Positions 52,437-60,874 of a stretch of DNA of 64,000 nt are shown here, in pieces. Position 1 is the stretch's first letter; every line of letters starts with the position of its first letter. The DNA is taken from assembly GCA_017464135.1 (NCBI GenBank), contig JAFUEB010000002.1:62001-126000 (forward strand), read 5' to 3'. This stretch comes from Candidatus Saccharimonadota bacterium. Its GTDB lineage: Bacteria; Patescibacteriota; Saccharimonadia; Saccharimonadales; Saccharimonadaceae. A program made the translations under genes and the position numbers. The notes beneath the pieces are model-generated. The model made no database searches and was not told where the DNA came from. It saw only the letters and a program-made list of their open reading frames with translations.

Positions 52437-53021
52437 TTAGAATTTTACGTCTGGAGCTTTTTCGATTTTGGCTTGCTCAGCTTCGGAAACTTCGAAGTAA
52501 TCACGCTTCTTGAAGTGACCAAACATGTTGTTTACCACGTTGGCTGGGAAAGTTTTAATCTTAGTATTGAGCTCTTTTGCGCCGGCATTGTAAAAACGGC
52601 GAGCAGCTTGAATTTTGTCTTCACAATCCTGGAGTTGACCTTGAAGAGTTTGGAAATTCGTATTTGCTTTGAGCTCTGGATAAGCCTCAGCAATGGCAAA
52701 GATGCGGCCAAGTGCATTCTGCATTTGGTTCTCTGCTTCAGCCGCTTGCTTAACGGTCTTTGCACCCATGGCAGCCGTACGAGCTTCCGTCACCATTTTG
52801 AAGGTTTCGTTCTCGTGCTTGGCATAGCCCTTAACAGTCTCAACCACATTTGGGATGAGATCTGCACGATACTTGAGCTGAACAGTAATGTCAGACCAAG
52901 CTTCGTTTACGCGCTCATTGAGCCCGACTAAACTGTTGTAGATCGCAATAATCGTACCGATGACGATTAATAGAATCGCGCCGACAACTATTAATGCTAT
53001 TAATCCTGGATTCATTTCCAC
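52437..53021 (-). CDS. lemA: LemA family membrane protein
   Basis: 194 residues: an N-terminal transmembrane helix (about residues 8-30, LIALIVVGAILLIVIGTIIA) and a helical-bundle LemA domain with NSLVGLNERVNEAWSDITVQ, LKYRADLIPNVVETVKGYAKH and ARRFYNAGAKELNTKI. LemA proteins sit in the inner membrane with the bulk outside or inside, and are commonly paired with HtpX, as here. Function is not established, although LemA-HtpX pairs have been linked to envelope stress. It has AAGGAG before the ATG and a TATAAT about 30-40 bases upstream. It heads the lemA-htpX-membrane-ligA-nudix cluster. Confidence 0.94.
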   Translation of the reverse strand: MEMNPGLIALIVVGAILLIVIGTIIAIYNSLVGLNERVNEAWSDITVQLKYRADLIPNVVETVKGYAKHENETFKMVTEARTAAMGAKTVKQAAEAENQMQNALGRIFAIAEAYPELKANTNFQTLQGQLQDCEDKIQAARRFYNAGAKELNTKIKTFPANVVNNMFGHFKKRDYFEVSEAEQAKIEKAPDVKF

Positions 53022-53068: not shown

Positions 53069-53713
53069 CTAAATCTCGGGCGCTGCTTCGTTCGCCGGAT
53101 GCACCATCGTATATTTCACTTTTCCAGTGTAACTACCAGATGGTTGGGTACCAGAAATATTTACCGCATAGCTCGATATTACCGCCGCTCCGGATTCCGG
53201 AGTCGTGCGCGCTGTATAGGTAATTACTTTCGTATAGTTTGCCGGAATCACTTTGTAATTTTGGTAGCCACTTTCAATCCCAAGATTTGACGGCACATAC
53301 GAGTCCATATCCTTCACGAGTTTCATCGACCAGTTCGAAGTTGTTTCGTTAGCACCCGTACCAGTCGCAATCGTATAGCCATTTGCATTCACCATATTGG
53401 TATTCCCATAAGTATCACCAGAAAAACCAATCGCATAAATCACAAATCCGGAAGCATCATTACAGATTGCCGTGAGTTTAGTTTTACCTAGATCTTCTTG
53501 ATAAGAATTCACACTTAGAGCATAAAGATGCGTCGTTATGGAAGCCGTCGACATCGTACAAGCTGCCGTCACATTCACGGACGCCTCCTTCGATTCCGCA
53601 CTTACAAATCGTAAATTAATCACGGAAAAAGCCGAAAACAGTATCAATAAGGATGGGCCAATCATAAAATAGAAATCACTTTTTCCCGTCTTTATTTTTG
53701 TCTGACTTTTCAT
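53069..53713 (-). CDS. Exported protein with cysteine-pair domain (CNDA family)
   Basis: 214 residues: signal anchor (about residues 15-38, FMIGPSLLILFSAFSVINLR), then a beta-rich secreted domain with AACTMSTAS and TAICNDASGFVIYAIGFSGD. The latter motif recurs in the protein at 58062-59369 (TAVCNDAGGYAIYAIGYSGD), as does YTGKVKYTMVHP versus YTGKVQYVLVNP, so the two are paralogues. The two cysteines may bridge. TATAAT (53721-53726) lies seven bases before the ATG. Its C-terminal tail is short and lacks the FISUMP-like part of the paralogue. Function unknown; surface or pseudopilin-like. Confidence 0.82.
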   Translation of the reverse strand: MKSQTKIKTGKSDFYFMIGPSLLILFSAFSVINLRFVSAESKEASVNVTAACTMSTASITTHLYALSVNSYQEDLGKTKLTAICNDASGFVIYAIGFSGDTYGNTNMVNANGYTIATGTGANETTSNWSMKLVKDMDSYVPSNLGIESGYQNYKVIPANYTKVITYTARTTPESGAAVISSYAVNISGTQPSGSYTGKVKYTMVHPANEAAPEI

Positions 53714-53737
53714 ACTTATGATTATACCATGCTAAGA

Positions 53738-56700
53738 TTAATACCTCGGAGCAAGTTCGTGCGTATATACTGCAGTAAGATTCCGATGTTTGTTGTCAGG
53801 ATCAGCTTTTGCTCTTCCCCAAAGGATAGTTGACACATCATAATTTACAACTTCTGCCGGTACTTTAGAATTAACGCCAGTAGCCGCTCCATACGTACGA
53901 TTAAGAAATAGTTTATTAGCCATAATCGATCCATTAATCTTAAGTTGATGAGAATTAAGTCTAAGGTTAATATTTTCAGATGCACAAGTATTTACATCCT
54001 CTTCCGCGATGATAATGGCATCGATTCTGCTTACCGCACAACCTATAGTGATATTTCTACCATAAATAATTAGCTTCTGAATATCCGACAAATTCGTAAA
54101 TGCCATGTCTTGATAGGTAATATTTCCGGCTATTGTTATATCGCCAGTCGCGTTAACTATATGTGTTCTTCCCACGCTGATGGTACTGCTATTTAGCACA
54201 ACGTCACCCTTCACATTGTATCTCACGACGTTTTTAGGCGTCCCATTGTTAAATACAATCGTCGTATTTCCAGTATATTCATTTACCAGAGAGTCTTCGT
54301 TTGGCAATCTAGCGATGATGGAGTCTCTATTTATTGTAGCAACAGAAATACCAGAACTACCGGTCATTTGCGCACTTGGGCAAATTCCCGAAACAATACT
54401 ATTTGAATAATTGCCAATTGAAAGTGGCACACGGTATTTACAATAATCTGCATTTACCTCCAAACTTCCACCACCCGCGATATTATTAGCTAGCCCAGAA
54501 GCGGCACCAGATGCCAAAGCAATCACGCGACCTTTGGCCGTTACACTCTGTTCCACCCAAGAACTAAATACGAACGTTCCCGTAAATTTCGGTAGCCCAC
54601 TTAATGTTTTCTTGTGCATGGCAGAAGTCGTAATTACGCCACCAGAATAAGCACTCCCGCCCCACACTTGGAAAGTTGGACGCTTAGCAATAATATAACA
54701 TTTAGAGTCCGAGATACGCCATCGATGGTTCCCTTCAGGATCGCTGAAATTCGTGTATTCACCACTATTGCTTGGATATGTTGCTACGGCAACACAAATC
54801 TTAGAACCGGCAGGAATGTCTGGGACGATATAGCTTAATTTGTATTTGTCACTACTACCATTTCTATTACCGCTAGCATTAAGTATCTGATTCTTTTCGT
54901 TATCATATTTACAAGTGCTTCCATTATTTGTGAGGTCATAATAACGACATAAGTCATCTGTTTTAGAACTGCCATAATTTGATGTTCCACCTTTTTCACC
55001 ACCAGAACTCGGGCGATAAATAATTAACTTCGAAATCGAATCTGGCACGATTGTAGCATACGCATCCTTTTCATCCCCGTTGGTAGTTTCTGGATTCACC
55101 CTTTTTTCGACATTAACGATATAACTGAATTCATCCTCTTCTCCAGAATAGAGGATTTGTTTATCTTCCGGAACAATTACCTCTACCTTAGTATCAAAAT
55201 TATATGGCACTCTTGCTTCCGCAGCACTACTCTTAGTTGCAGTAATCACATTGGCATTGATATTACTACCAGACGCCGTGAATGTAACCTGGCTTGGCGT
55301 TGTCTTAGTTGTATTATTTAAATTAGTCTGAGCGGTTTCAACCAGTTTTTTACCGACCTTCGAGCTCACGACGGTATAATCATTGGTTTCTTTTCTTTTC
55401 AAAGTATTCCCGACACTATAAGAATAATTCTGCGAGAACGAAAAGTTCTCATTTGATCTAATCGAGAATGCATTTTTCCATGTATACGTATTCTTATTAT
55501 CAAACAAACTATATAGATAATACCCATTATTGGTAATAGTAGCTCCTCCATCTATTTGCATGGTCTGAGGAATTATCGAATAGCTATATTGCAAAATCGG
55601 ATTATACGTACCACGGTAAGTCAAAATATCTCCAGGCTTTGCATATACTATTTTTTGGAACTTCTTATACTTATCTGCACCGGAATTATTTTTGACACGC
55701 ATATCAAGAAATGCATTGCTTAAATCATCATCTTCCATAACGGCAGAATCCGTCGGATCTGGTGGTTGTGCATTGCCGGTTGCCATTACACAGTATTTAA
55801 TATCAGCCGCCGGCTTAACATCTATCACGTTATTCGAAGGCTTGAATGTTAATATCTCGCACACCATTTGTCCAGGAACCAAGGTAATATTATTATCATC
55901 AGCTTCTTTAACTCCGGTGTTATTTGGAAGATTAATAAAATATTCCGTGACATTATTCTTTAAAACGCTATTTGGAACAACAGAATAATTCGATGTACGT
56001 TTAATCGTATAATCCGTAAACCCAATTCCGGATGTCCTACGAAGATAGTGCTGGAAATTTACGGTGCAAGGCTTAGCGTAAGTACAGGATGTTAAGATTT
56101 TGCTTTGCGAATCATTACTTGATTTCCAACCAGTGTCACCAGTAGCACCTCCAGAAACACCAATCCTCCCTTGGAAAGACGATTCTTTCGCTCGCGCACA
56201 CGCCTCAGCAGCCGATATTTTATCATTCGAATAGCTACCATAAGGTTGAAAGGCAATACTAAAACAATAAGTTTCTCCCGGATGCAATGTATCTGATGCA
56301 TAATTACGATAAAAAGTATCGCCACTAGCATAATAATATGATTGAATATCTAAGAGTGTTCCAGAAGTAGATGGAGAAAAAGGACTAAGTGGCGATGTTA
56401 TTAAGTAAAAGAGCAGTCCATTTTTTCTGATTCGTCCGGTATAATAAGCTAGTCCAGAACCCTTTTCTCTCTTCATGGCTAGATCGAACGAACCACGACA
56501 TCCATCGTTCGGACATTCCATGTCTATAGAAACAGTTTTATCGTATTCAACATATCCGGTGCTCGCATTATTCGCGCTATCTGTTCCTTCTCCCTCAAAA
56601 ACTCTCGCCCGTCCAGAAAATTCATCTCTTTCATAAACCGCATATATAGTAGTATCTGATTCTATATACCCAGCATCATAACACAAACTAGTATCATCCC

Positions 56701-57394
56701 ACCAAGTGTAAGACGAAGTACTTCTGCCCCACTTAATCTTCGTATAGCCATTTGCTGTTCCTATACATGCTTGTGCCCTACCACCAGGGTCCACCTCAAC
56801 CGTAGCGTCTGGAATTATGGAAGATAGCGACCATCCATTCGTATCAATAGCCTTAATCGTAAGAGTATTCGATACTCGCTCTTCAACTGTGATTTCAATA
56901 TCATCTAGAAAATCGCCCCAACCATCTTCGCGCGGCCAGTCGGACCCCCACCAATCATAGTGATCTACTTCAACCCATAGAGACCAAACTTCGTAGTTAC
57001 CTCTCCTAGTAGAATAACCATAGCGCTTAATATCGTCTTTTGAAATAGAGAAATTATAAACATTGTATTTTGGGCTATAATCCTGTAGCTCTTGTGACCA
57101 CGACACTCTATTACCAAGGAAGAAATCCTGGCTGCCTCGATAATCTGAAGTAATTCTTGTGTATAAAGGAACTACATCTGTCCAATTCGGATTAGTATTA
57201 TATGTGATACCTGCATAGATATTCACGGAGCAATCATATTTTGTGCTTCGCTCTTTACAACTCAAATCTCCATCAACCCACCCCTCAAGCGAATAAGCAT
57301 TCACGTTATTAGCGAGAAAGAAAAGCCCAAACAACAATGAACCTGTCAGTCCAAACAGAAACATGAATAGTTTGTTGAAGATATTAACCTTCAT
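53738..57394 (-). CDS. Very large exported protein, 1218 aa
   Basis: The largest secreted protein of the window. A signal peptide (MFLFGLTGSLLFGLFFLANN, cleavage near NAYS), a beta-rich repeat-like body with many paired cysteines (for example CPNDGC, ACIGTANGY, CTYAKPCTVNF), and a C-terminal part with regular beta-strand turns (GDITIAGNITYQDM, ITIGCAVSRIDAIII) reminiscent of beta-helix or bactofilin-like folds. It has no C-terminal membrane helix or LPXTG. The start at 57394 is set by GGAG six bases upstream, inside the preceding gene. It is translationally coupled to 57384-57824. Adhesion or host contact is likely but inferred. Confidence 0.86.
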   Translation of the reverse strand: MKVNIFNKLFMFLFGLTGSLLFGLFFLANNVNAYSLEGWVDGDLSCKERSTKYDCSVNIYAGITYNTNPNWTDVVPLYTRITSDYRGSQDFFLGNRVSWSQELQDYSPKYNVYNFSISKDDIKRYGYSTRRGNYEVWSLWVEVDHYDWWGSDWPREDGWGDFLDDIEITVEERVSNTLTIKAIDTNGWSLSSIIPDATVEVDPGGRAQACIGTANGYTKIKWGRSTSSYTWWDDTSLCYDAGYIESDTTIYAVYERDEFSGRARVFEGEGTDSANNASTGYVEYDKTVSIDMECPNDGCRGSFDLAMKREKGSGLAYYTGRIRKNGLLFYLITSPLSPFSPSTSGTLLDIQSYYYASGDTFYRNYASDTLHPGETYCFSIAFQPYGSYSNDKISAAEACARAKESSFQGRIGVSGGATGDTGWKSSNDSQSKILTSCTYAKPCTVNFQHYLRRTSGIGFTDYTIKRTSNYSVVPNSVLKNNVTEYFINLPNNTGVKEADDNNITLVPGQMVCEILTFKPSNNVIDVKPAADIKYCVMATGNAQPPDPTDSAVMEDDDLSNAFLDMRVKNNSGADKYKKFQKIVYAKPGDILTYRGTYNPILQYSYSIIPQTMQIDGGATITNNGYYLYSLFDNKNTYTWKNAFSIRSNENFSFSQNYSYSVGNTLKRKETNDYTVVSSKVGKKLVETAQTNLNNTTKTTPSQVTFTASGSNINANVITATKSSAAEARVPYNFDTKVEVIVPEDKQILYSGEEDEFSYIVNVEKRVNPETTNGDEKDAYATIVPDSISKLIIYRPSSGGEKGGTSNYGSSKTDDLCRYYDLTNNGSTCKYDNEKNQILNASGNRNGSSDKYKLSYIVPDIPAGSKICVAVATYPSNSGEYTNFSDPEGNHRWRISDSKCYIIAKRPTFQVWGGSAYSGGVITTSAMHKKTLSGLPKFTGTFVFSSWVEQSVTAKGRVIALASGAASGLANNIAGGGSLEVNADYCKYRVPLSIGNYSNSIVSGICPSAQMTGSSGISVATINRDSIIARLPNEDSLVNEYTGNTTIVFNNGTPKNVVRYNVKGDVVLNSSTISVGRTHIVNATGDITIAGNITYQDMAFTNLSDIQKLIIYGRNITIGCAVSRIDAIIIAEEDVNTCASENINLRLNSHQLKINGSIMANKLFLNRTYGAATGVNSKVPAEVVNYDVSTILWGRAKADPDNKHRNLTAVYTHELAPRY

Positions 57395-57824
57395 CTTCGC
57401 TCCAGTGCACTTTAGATTTACCCTCTTTCCCGGATTCACCTGAATCGTTCTTTTCTACGCAAGAAGACATAATACTAGCCGTCAGCTGCTTCATTTCGCC
57501 AGATTGATCTAACTCATTTGCGAGATTAAGGTCACGCTCAATCATTTCGCATAAGTCAGTATCGGTTTCAAGCATATATTTCTTTAATTCATACGCCCGA
57601 TCAATATAAAGGTTCATTCTTGCTACGTCGTCAGTAGATTTATCATCTATTTTGGTTTGATATCGTGACACGATTTGTTCGACTTCAGACTTTTTTTCAG
57701 GAACTATCTCCTGTTTTTTTATAAAATGGACGGCAACTATTGCACCCGCGAGACTAATGCCTAAAAGAACCAAAAAGCAAAATGCAATTTTGAGAACACG
57801 TCCCTGGGTGTTATCACGCTCCAT
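57384..57824 (-). CDS. Small single-pass membrane protein, operon partner
   Basis: 146 residues, not recognised: a short charged N terminus, one transmembrane helix (LKIAFCFLVLLGISLAGAIV, about residues 11-33) and an outward or inward helical domain rich in Asp/Glu/Lys (about 40-130), ending in an acidic tail (HWSEDEG). Two cysteines lie in the helical part. TATAAT (57832-57837) is seven bases before the ATG. The stop overlaps the start of the giant exported protein by 11 bases, so it may help export or anchor it. Confidence 0.78.
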   Translation of the reverse strand: MERDNTQGRVLKIAFCFLVLLGISLAGAIVAVHFIKKQEIVPEKKSEVEQIVSRYQTKIDDKSTDDVARMNLYIDRAYELKKYMLETDTDLCEMIERDLNLANELDQSGEMKQLTASIMSSCVEKNDSGESGKEGKSKVHWSEDEG

Positions 57825-58061
57825 AATCTATATTATACATAAGTTTTTTGAAAAAAACATAACAATTATTTAACTACGCAGAAAGCAATAAAAAAACCAA
57901 TATCCGTGCAATAAAAAATGTATTTTTAAGCTAGCACATCATTCCATATTGTGCGCCAGCGGCTTTTCAGCGTCCTTTCGCTTGAGGCTTAAGGGCGCTT
58001 TATTCCGGAGAGTCGAGTACGGGGAAGAAACATACGGAACGAAGGAAAAGGGAGTCACAAC
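57825..58061. other. Intergenic region with a hairpin
   Basis: 237 bases between two minus-strand genes. It holds the promoter of the 57824 gene at the left end, and a hairpin GCGTCCTT (57970-57977) / AAGGGCGC (57991-57998) with one G-T pair, which lacks a T-run on the minus strand. The right part (58000-58061), just past the 58062 stop, has unusual GC-rich composition. No reading frame or RNA family was recognised. Confidence 0.45.
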
Positions 58062-59369
58062 TTACTTCAGTACGCACCGTATAGCGTTCCCGTTGACGCG
58101 GTAGTCGCTAACGGCCGGACTGACAAGCGACGTATTGAGGTACAGGAGGTACATATTCGTGACACTGTTCCTAGTAGAAGACCAGTAGAAGCCGAGTGAC
58201 CCCTGACGCGCCGGAGCGGCATTGCTGAAGTCGCCAGCGAGAGCGATAGCAGCTCCGGAATTCTCAATTGATGCTCTCATAAGAGCGTTGGAGTTATACT
58301 CGGCATAAAGAGCCTGAAATTCTCCGGAGCTTCCGCCGGTTGGGAGACGCCATCCGGCAGGGCAGATATCGTAACTGGCATTGTTGCTGTTACTGGTACC
58401 CGAAATGGTCCCGGCAGATGCGGCATAGTAATTGTAGAGAGTGCCATAGGCTGTGCCGGAAGTGGAGTCTGTGCCAGAGACACTGATGTATTCACCAGCA
58501 TCATAGGTAGCGGAGCCGGATGTTTTCTTCCAGCCATTGAAGGTTTCTGCAGTAACGGTTGTAGCGAGGTTGGTATTAGAAGAGGTTAGGTCTGTAGTAA
58601 TGGCGGTACGTCCTAAATCCAAGTTTTCCATCATCCAGCATTTGCCGTCTTTGAGACGTTGGATTGTGTAGACATGACCATCACGTGTGTCCTTCACCTG
58701 CGATGGAGTGGTGGTACACTGTGAGGCAGAGAGATTTTGCATAGCAGCGATGGTAGATGGTGCAGCGGCACCGGATGGGTTTACGAGTACATATTGGACC
58801 TTGCCAGTATAAGTACCAGCTGGTTGTCCTTCGCCAAAGTGGATCTGGTAATGCGGGACAATGGAACCACTGGTAGTGTATTCATTGTATGATGCTACTT
58901 TGGCCCAGGTAGCTGGAATCTGCTGGTAGGCGGTGTAAGGGCTGGTGGCAGTAGCTTGGCCAGATGCGGTAAAGGACATCTTCCAATATGATTCCTGGTA
59001 ACTGCCATCCGTCTTGATATTGAAGTTTTCATTACTCGTGCTGATAAGATCAGTATTGTTTCCGGAGGTGGAATCACCGGAATATCCTATAGCATAAATG
59101 GCATAGCCACCGGCATCATTACAGACAGCCGTGATAGTATTGCCGGTAATTGTTCCAGTACTTCCTGGATTCATGGATTTGGTGTAGCTTCCGCCTCCAG
59201 TGATTAGGCTACAGTTTGAATCCACTGTAACCGTTAACGTATCCTGTACGGCTGCTGGATTAGTGGCGTTTACGTTTGCCACACTCCCAATTGCGACAAA
59301 ACTTAAAAGAGCCAAGACGGGAAAGACTTTCGTCGCCCAACCGGCTCTCACAATAGTTTTGTTTTTCAT
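58062..59369 (-). CDS. Exported protein: CNDA domain plus FISUMP-like C terminus
   Basis: 435 residues: signal peptide (VLALLSFVAIGSVANVNA), a secreted domain homologous to 53069-53713 (TAVCNDAGGYAIYAIGYSGD, about residues 75-205), then a C-terminal domain with DTRDGHVYTIQRLKDGKCWM, MENLDLGRT, DICPAGWRLPTGG and NAIRCVLK, the pattern of the Fibrobacter succinogenes major paralogous domain (FISUMP). This organisation is typical of extracellular adhesive or lectin-like proteins. Base use (more G in third positions on the coding strand's complement) differs from its neighbours, suggesting transfer or rapid evolution. The start at 59369 is chosen over 59429 on the basis of the signal peptide; the longer ORF adds 20 residues of doubtful value. 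Confidence 0.84.
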   Translation of the reverse strand: MKNKTIVRAGWATKVFPVLALLSFVAIGSVANVNATNPAAVQDTLTVTVDSNCSLITGGGSYTKSMNPGSTGTITGNTITAVCNDAGGYAIYAIGYSGDSTSGNNTDLISTSNENFNIKTDGSYQESYWKMSFTASGQATATSPYTAYQQIPATWAKVASYNEYTTSGSIVPHYQIHFGEGQPAGTYTGKVQYVLVNPSGAAAPSTIAAMQNLSASQCTTTPSQVKDTRDGHVYTIQRLKDGKCWMMENLDLGRTAITTDLTSSNTNLATTVTAETFNGWKKTSGSATYDAGEYISVSGTDSTSGTAYGTLYNYYAASAGTISGTSNSNNASYDICPAGWRLPTGGSSGEFQALYAEYNSNALMRASIENSGAAIALAGDFSNAAPARQGSLGFYWSSTRNSVTNMYLLYLNTSLVSPAVSDYRVNGNAIRCVLK

Positions 59370-59563
59370 TTTATACCCTTTTGCACTATGCTTTTTTGTG
59401 TATAACAATATCTGTTTCAAGCATAGCAAATCTCAAAAAGAATAAAAAGACTTGTAATGTCTGGAAAATATGGCATAACCATATTAACCAGAGGTGATTA
59501 TACATCGTTTCCCTTGATTTTCCCTACCATCCTCACAAAATCGCTCTTATTACAATCATTTTC

Positions 59564-59719
59564 TGGTGCGAATGAAGAGGCTCTAACTCTCGTTGGCGTA
59601 GCCCGAGAGTTAGCGAAGCACAAAAAATGGTGCGAATGAAGAGACTCTAACTCTCGTTGGCGTAGCCCGAGAGTTAGCGAAGCACAAAAATGGTGCGAAT
59701 GAAGAGACTCTAACTCTCG
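59564..59719 (-). repeat. Tandem copies of the tRNA-Gly 3' end
   Basis: The 29-nt sequence covering the tRNA-Gly T-arm, acceptor 3' strand and CCA occurs at 59691-59719 (in the gene) and again at 59628-59656 and 59564-59592, at 63-64-nt spacing. Copy 59564 differs at one base. The spacers (about 34 nt) each carry CTAACTCTCG, which pairs with CGAGAGTTAG of the next copy into a 10-bp hairpin. The bases 59370-59563 left of this hold only the upstream region of the 58062-59369 gene. Confidence 0.88.
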
Positions 59720-59767
59720 ACCTCTTCCTTGGCAAGGAAGCGCTCTAAACAACTGAGCTACATTCGC
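59691..59767 (-). tRNA. tRNA-Gly (GCC), unusual D-/T-loop
   Basis: Acceptor GCGAATG/CATTCGC, D-stem GCTC/GAGC, anticodon stem CTTCC/GGAAG with loop TTGCCAA, T-stem GAGAG/CTCTT, encoded CCA. The D-loop AGTTGTTTA has T at position 19 (normally G) and the T-loop TTAGAGT has A at 56 (normally C), so the tertiary G19-C56 pair is replaced by a U-A pair. -10 TATAAT at 59779-59784. Whether it is a proteinogenic or special-purpose tRNA-Gly is open. Confidence 0.93.
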
Positions 59768-59887: not shown

Positions 59888-60874
59888 ATGGAAATGTTTC
59901 TACAAATAGTGATGTTGGTTGCTGGCTTCGTACTTTTGATTAAAGGTGCGGACTGGTTAATCTCCGGCGCGTCTTCCGTCGCACAAAATTTCAAAGTATC
60001 AAAAATGTTAATCGGCCTTACGATTATCGCATTTGGCACCGGTGCTCCAGAGCTTGCAGTTTCCATTTCCTCTATGATTAGTGGCAATACCGACGTTCTC
60101 CTCGGTAACGTGGTTGGTAGCAACGTCGTAAACGTCTTACTTCTTCTTGGTGTCGGTGCAGCCATTACGCCAATCATCGTAAAAAGAAATACTGTGAAAA
60201 AAGAACTGCCAATTTTGCTTTTAATCTCTACTATACTCGTCGTCTTATTCCTTGATACTTCTTTGAACGATGCCACTGTTAGCAAAATCTCTCGTGCTGA
60301 CGCTCTTGTCTGTATCCTATTATTTGGTGTCTTTATTTACTACCTCGTCGCCATGGCCAAAAAGAAGAAAAACGCCAAAAACGAAGTCGAGAAACCAAAG
60401 TGGAAACTCGGCACATCCTTCCTCATCACCGCTATTGGTCTTGCCGGTGTCGTCGGCGGTAGTCAACTCGTCGTAAATGGCGCTACTTCCATTGCCCAGG
60501 CTTTCGGCGTATCCGAAAAAATGATTTCCCTCACTATCGTCGCCTTTGGTACTTCGCTCCCAGAGCTCGTCACAACTATTACTGCATCTAGACGAAAAGA
60601 GCACGATCTCTTAATTGGTAACATCATCGGCAGTAACATCTTTAATATTTGTGGTGTCATGGCCATCCCAGTACTATTCGGTGGTTCCATCACTGCTACG
60701 AACTTCGACCCAATCGACCTTATCATGCTCATCTTCTCTGCTCTTCTCGTTTGGCTCTTTACTATTAAAGACCACAAGATTAACCGCACGGAAGGCTGGG
60801 CCATGCTTGCCATCTTTGCCTTGTATTATACCTATGTCATCTACGTTGGAATAACTGGCGTTCAAGTCCTATGA
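59888..60874 (+). CDS. Calcium/sodium:cation antiporter (CaCA family, YrbG-like)
   Basis: 328 residues with about ten helices arranged as two inverted alpha repeats: repeat 1 has TIIAFGTGAPELAVSISSMI and GNVVGSNVVNVLLLLGVG; repeat 2 has TIVAFGTSLPELVTTITAS and GNIIGSNIFNICGVMAIP. These segments carry the ion-binding acidic and Asn/Ser residues of the family. A charged cytosolic loop lies between the repeats (about residues 155-180). It exchanges Ca2+ with Na+ or H+. The EamA-type gene follows with an ATGA overlap. Confidence 0.95.
   Translation: MEMFLQIVMLVAGFVLLIKGADWLISGASSVAQNFKVSKMLIGLTIIAFGTGAPELAVSISSMISGNTDVLLGNVVGSNVVNVLLLLGVGAAITPIIVKRNTVKKELPILLLISTILVVLFLDTSLNDATVSKISRADALVCILLFGVFIYYLVAMAKKKKNAKNEVEKPKWKLGTSFLITAIGLAGVVGGSQLVVNGATSIAQAFGVSEKMISLTIVAFGTSLPELVTTITASRRKEHDLLIGNIIGSNIFNICGVMAIPVLFGGSITATNFDPIDLIMLIFSALLVWLFTIKDHKINRTEGWAMLAIFALYYTYVIYVGITGVQVL

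Follow-up and report, generated by a model that had tools for sequence, protein, structure and literature searches.

In Staphylococcus, non-proteinogenic tRNA-Gly genes have altered D-loop and T-loop positions and occur as extra copies beside the proteinogenic ones. In E. coli, tandem units (rtT) lie downstream of the tRNA gene tyrT, each with a copy of the tRNA 3' end. The pair that joins the D-loop to the T-loop at the tRNA elbow, G19-C56, has been called universal or nearly so (PMC8318882, PMC10495418). It is held by A896 of the A-site finger in A-site tRNA and by A2309 of helix 84 together with Arg80 of uL5 in P-site tRNA (PMC8318882), with contacts also given in PMC10495418, and in precursor tRNA it is stacked into the T-loops of the RNase P S-domain (PMC9433436). 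A literature search, incomplete in its coverage, returned no account of A19-U56 or U19-A56, or of elbow variation in the Candidate Phyla Radiation.

The window, by which we mean the whole 64,000-nucleotide stretch of DNA analysed, carries a tRNA gene that departs from this pair (Table 1). ARAGORN and Rfam RF00005 agree on the gene and on its GCC anticodon, both recognising a tRNA cloverleaf. Its letters are GCGAATG TA GCTC AGTTGTTTA GAGC G CTTCC TTGCCAA GGAAG AGGTC GAGAG TTAGAGT CTCTT CATTCGC A CCA. The D-loop reads A14 G15 U16 U17 G18 U19 U20 U20a A21 (G18 at 59750) and the T-loop U54 U55 A56 G57 A58 G59 U60. The canonical elbow contacts G18-U55 and U54-A58 are preserved, as is pairing in the stems, the sole further blemish being a G49-U65 wobble, and U19-A56 stands where G19-C56 is expected. 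These readings confirm the replacement claimed in the preliminary description and place the gene on the minus strand. Sequencing error at both positions, which would have explained the claim away, is excluded by more than 100 independent assemblies with a changed pair; every tRNA-Gly(GCC) that was read from the order shows either this state or its mirror image, which puts U19-A56 far beyond chance.

Table 1. Positions of the tRNA-Gly(GCC) gene, its changed elbow bases and the downstream repeat units in the window
Feature	Position	Strand	Basis
tRNA-Gly(GCC), 77 nt, encoded CCA, A73	59691..59767	minus	ARAGORN; Rfam RF00005 70.1 bits; sequence
U19 in D-loop, normally G19	59749	minus	sequence reading
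A56 in T-loop, normally C56, complementary to U19	59711	minus	sequence and covariation
First repeat unit: inverted T-arm hairpin, then copy of tRNA 3' end (T-arm with A56, acceptor 3' strand, CCA)	59628..59690	minus	
Second repeat unit, one mismatch	59564..59627	minus	

The genome that contains the window (668,675 bases in 4 contigs, 72% complete) gave 31 tRNA matches. Among its 30 distinct tRNAs, the window tRNA-Gly(GCC) is the only one that lacks both the D-loop GG and C56, and tRNA-Gly(CCC) of the same genome is canonical at 19-56. A search for another tRNA-Gly(GCC), proposed earlier as a check, found none in this 72% complete genome, nor in two essentially complete relatives, G352 of the same order (34 tRNAs) and G378 of the same class but another order (38 tRNAs). 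In both relatives the single tRNA-Gly(GCC) is A19-U56, and every other tRNA has the canonical pair. Where a genome has two tRNA-Gly(GCC) genes, both copies are changed. Since the gene is the sole tRNA-Gly(GCC) in its own genome and in the two essentially complete relatives, the U19-A56 tRNA must decode GGC and GGU, and the canonical proteinogenic tRNA-Gly(GCC) that accompanies a peptidoglycan-type gene was found in none of the three. Judged from sequence, the window gene is very probably an ordinary, essential elongator tRNA-Gly for GGC and GGU, with a class-ancestral alternative elbow whose pairing is under selection.

An identical 77-nt gene is present in three assemblies named Candidatus Saccharibacteria, which bears out the lineage assumed in the preliminary description, and from these and from kinship labels we infer that the class of the sampled genomes is Saccharimonadia. 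A tRNA-Gly(GCC) could be read in 133 of 149 genomes of the order, the other 16 being mostly fragmented assemblies, and all were U19-A56 or A19-U56; G19-C56 occurred in none. A tRNA-Gly(GCC) pattern with positions 19 and 56 left free accounted for 88 of the 149 genomes, with U19-A56 throughout except for A19-U56 in G440. A covariance model, built from an alignment whose rows are sequences read in this analysis, and direct reading added 45 genomes, again all U-A or A-U; the model revealed a form with a D-loop one base shorter in genomes that the pattern had missed. The genus member G258 and both class-level outgroups, G378 and G335 (loci L260 and L278), are A19-U56. A second pattern, demanding A or U at both positions, matched 5 of 145 genomes of a phylum sample, all 5 in the order of the window; it undercounts because it demands the 77-nt form, and in that form it had no match in the 136 phylum-sample genomes outside the order. 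In two other Patescibacteria lineages (L284, L285) tRNA-Gly(GCC) has G19-C56 with U73, a third (L286) has G19 with a T-loop badly framed by ARAGORN, and one marine Patescibacteria record combines A19-U56 with U73. Thus, the comparison of tRNA-Gly across Saccharibacteria called for at the outset gave only U19-A56 and A19-U56 in tRNA-Gly(GCC), and the lineage-specific elbow then suggested is strongly supported by fixation over the sampled class and perfect Watson-Crick covariation. The changed pair is ancestral to Saccharimonadia, where it is A-U or U-A.

A pattern allowing any base at 19 and any base but C at 56 had matches in 101 of the 149 order genomes, and those listed are tRNA-Gly(GCC) or tRNA-Ala only. 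Among the listed matches from the 149 genomes, A56 always comes with U19 and U56 always with A19, and G19 is found with no base other than C at 56. Apparent mismatches of non-G19 with C56, in 101 genomes, were rejected, as every match listed reads [CT]GG, the GG being shifted by one D-loop position; among these no true 19-56 mismatch was seen. In the same order, tRNA-Ala(UGC) and tRNA-Ala(GGC) vary: A19-U56 is frequent, while U19-A56 and the canonical pair each occur in some cases (for example in G001, G126, G175 and G200). As tRNA-Ala takes all three states, the machinery of the order tolerates G-C, A-U and U-A. Elsewhere in the elbow, tRNA-Cys(GCA) of G378 (L325) has the T-loop UGCAAAU, with G instead of U at position 55.

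A global scan of GTDB-based contigs, requiring A or U at 19 as well as at 56, gave at least 116 stretches and at least 117 tRNAs within the one D-arm type and one variable-loop length that the scan covered, many tRNA kinds falling outside this pattern. Of those listed, 82 are A-U and 35 U-A; A-A and U-U are both absent. Among the matches listed, the swapped pair occurs in tRNA-Arg of Bacteroidota, Melainabacteria, Campylobacterota, Acidobacteriota and Bacillota, in tRNA-Val(UAC) of Alphaproteobacteria, and in tRNA-Gly and tRNA-Ala of Saccharibacteria. The 19-56 pair is not absolutely fixed, since Watson-Crick swaps are sporadic in other bacteria; among these matches, Saccharimonadia alone show one isoacceptor fixed throughout a class, whereas elsewhere the swap is scattered.

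A tree of ribosomal proteins L23-L2-S19-L22-S3 from 38 class members and 3 outgroups recovered the class as one clade (support 100/99), in which the two deepest members are A-U. On this tree the U-A label requires 11 changes (bootstrap 10-12), 6 of the changes being forced by well supported branches. No class row is G-C, and reversions to G-C number zero. Going from A-U to U-A takes two transversions by way of a mismatch, whereas A-U to G-C takes two transitions by way of G-U or A-C. If G-C and the other weak pair are given equal odds, the probability of no reversion is about 0.0005 for 11 flips and about 0.016 for the 6 forced ones; the calculation assumes independent events, and the tree has many open forks. 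About 11 flips, always paired and without reversion although G-C is mutationally easier, point to selection for a Watson-Crick 19-56 pair and suggest, less certainly than for pairing, selection against G19-C56 in tRNA-Gly(GCC). If the 6 forced flips alone are counted, the argument from missing reversions is modest, and their absence could come in part from shared ancestry hidden by open forks. We are evenly divided on the full proposal, namely that G19-C56 is actively excluded from one essential tRNA, tRNA-Gly(GCC), while U-A/A-U exchange preserves pairing, so that the identity of the pair is information that some factor reads.

Neutral compensatory drift is the strongest alternative, and we regard it as a real possibility on the doubtful side of even: an ancestral double change became fixed, later flips were neutral, and G-C failed to come back by chance. 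Like active exclusion, it sees the gene as an ordinary tRNA of translation; the two readings part solely over selection against G-C. Drift would fit the sporadic Watson-Crick swaps in tRNA-Arg, tRNA-Ala and tRNA-Val of other bacteria and the movement of tRNA-Ala between pair states within the order; however, it has to accommodate about 11 two-transversion flips against no two-transition return, at the probabilities given above.

How a changed pair could work follows from where it docks. Because the A-site finger, helix 84 with uL5, and RNase P stack on or contact 19-56, another Watson-Crick pair should serve: the pair would keep its job by geometry, its stacking partners needing a flat pair that any Watson-Crick pair would supply. 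Under active exclusion, selection would keep the pair Watson-Crick and would probably also disfavour G19-C56 in tRNA-Gly(GCC), where a non-G-C elbow perhaps serves tuning or identity in a tRNA whose codon-anticodon pair is very strong. The two forms may differ in modification. The motif of TruB is given as 53-GUUYRANYC-61 (PMC7912444), with a pyrimidine at 56; A19-U56 members keep it and A56 of the window tRNA breaks it, so U55 of U19-A56 tRNA-Gly(GCC) may stay unmodified. Two candidate causes of the swap were rejected: loss of TruB, since TruB is present in the genome of the window and in most of the class, and the type of GlyRS, which is dimeric in all sampled Patescibacteria, with or without the swap.

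An effect on decoding is a rather unlikely explanation, less likely than drift. Here a weaker elbow would offset the very strong codon-anticodon pair of Gly GGY, Ala GCN and Arg CGN, making tRNAs uniform on the ribosome. Codons of the Gly GGN, Ala GCN and Arg CGN boxes are read by 89 of the 117 weak-pair tRNAs listed in the global scan, a raw share from a scan of one D-arm type. However, Arg(CCU/UCU) and Val(UAC) make up 26 of the 117, and some Ala tRNAs in the class are unchanged.

We consider it improbable that the changed elbow is an antideterminant that keeps a wrong partner, such as AlaRS, off tRNA-Gly(GCC), although several facts invite the idea. The C-Ala domain of AlaRS binds the D-loop and elbow, and in nematode tests it also bound a tRNA-Gly whose D-loop is the same (PMC10485164); tRNA-Gly(GCC) and tRNA-Ala have a D-arm type in common. 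U73 is the bacterial state and a shield against the deacylase DTD according to a review (PMC9976931), whereas every class tRNA-Gly(GCC) read has A73, the base preferred by AlaRS. A73 thus goes with the swap in the class, as U73 goes with G19 in the other Patescibacteria lineages read. Against this, tRNA-Gly(UCC) and tRNA-Gly(CCC) keep G19-C56 with A73, albeit on another D-arm, the marine record has A19-U56 with U73, and tRNA-Ala(UGC) shares U19-A56 with tRNA-Gly in G175, G200, G255 and G275.

Phages are another proposed source for the change. Directly 3' of the tRNA, 59564-59690 consists of two tandem units of 63-64 nt, each an inverted T-arm hairpin and then a copy of the last 29 nt of the tRNA with CCA. 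Folded together, the two units surpass all 200 shuffles in stability (z -4.84). In about nine of the genus loci read (such as L038, L043, L046, L047, L056, L095 and L179), tRNA-Gly(GCC) has similar units after it, with other hairpin loops and spacers. At L058, two full-length degenerate tRNA-Gly copies with insertions stand in tandem downstream of an intact tRNA-Gly(GCC). Many repeat-search matches for other tRNAs proved to be adjacent tRNA genes and were rejected as repeats. On the viral contig IMGVR_UViG_3300029969_000036 (L421:1095-2187), a tRNA-Gly(GCC) 3' half with A56 lies directly downstream of a tyrosine recombinase-like gene, named by eye. Because this 3' half stands beside a recombinase-like gene on a contig without a full tRNA, tRNA-Gly(GCC) probably serves phages as an attachment site, and the downstream units may be integration scars or remnants; they are unnecessary for the elbow claim. 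DNA similarity searches in phages and plasmids returned distant tRNA matches only. That integration at this site replaced the 3' half and brought A56, with U19 following later, agrees with the A56 of the viral half and with the partial 3' copies in the window and its relatives. Nevertheless, we think it very unlikely, as class-wide fixation and the frequent flips are older and more numerous than any visible insertion, and phages as a rule take their attachment sequence from the host instead of imposing it.

The surroundings of the gene vary. In the window, several secreted or surface-like proteins are encoded at 53069-59429 on the minus strand, between tRNA-Gly and a lemA-like gene (52437-53021), whereas at L040 a lemA-like gene directly follows the tRNA. 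An antiporter-like gene is divergent at 59888 in the window and stands on the same strand after the tRNA in L045, L051 and L056. All of these were named by eye.

Least credible is a special non-ribosomal tRNA-Gly like those for Staphylococcus peptidoglycan bridges, a use raised in the preliminary description and left unsupported here: it has in its favour a resemblance, D-loop and T-loop positions off consensus, whereas the gene is the sole tRNA-Gly(GCC) in essentially complete genomes, changed in both copies where there are two, and keeps G18-U55 and U54-A58.

The ribosome and RNase P dock on the 19-56 pair, yet one essential tRNA of a whole class does without G19-C56. This suggests that even a part of tRNA regarded as fixed can change, and that selection can keep it changed. 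About a dozen natural flips amount to a ready-made experiment on whether the role of the pair lies in pairing, base identity or U55 modification. In practical terms, valid tRNAs may be mis-scored wherever C56 is taken for granted, in tRNA finders or in engineered tRNAs.

Set beside known systems, the gene shares with canonical bacterial tRNA-Gly(GCC) its cloverleaf, anticodon, G18-U55, U54-A58, RNA family score and encoded CCA, but the class has U-A or A-U at 19-56, never G-C, and A73 in place of U73. The sporadically swapped tRNA-Arg, tRNA-Val and tRNA-Ala of other bacteria show the same Watson-Crick exchange, scattered over lineages, whereas that of Saccharimonadia is fixed class-wide in a single isoacceptor. 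Altered D-loop and T-loop positions are common to the Saccharibacterial gene and the extra tRNA-Gly copies of Staphylococcus, but the former is the only tRNA-Gly(GCC) seen in its genome. Like the rtT repeats of E. coli tyrT, the downstream units are tandem and each repeats the tRNA 3' end, but they are 63-64 nt long, carry an inverted T-arm hairpin and are unrelated in sequence.
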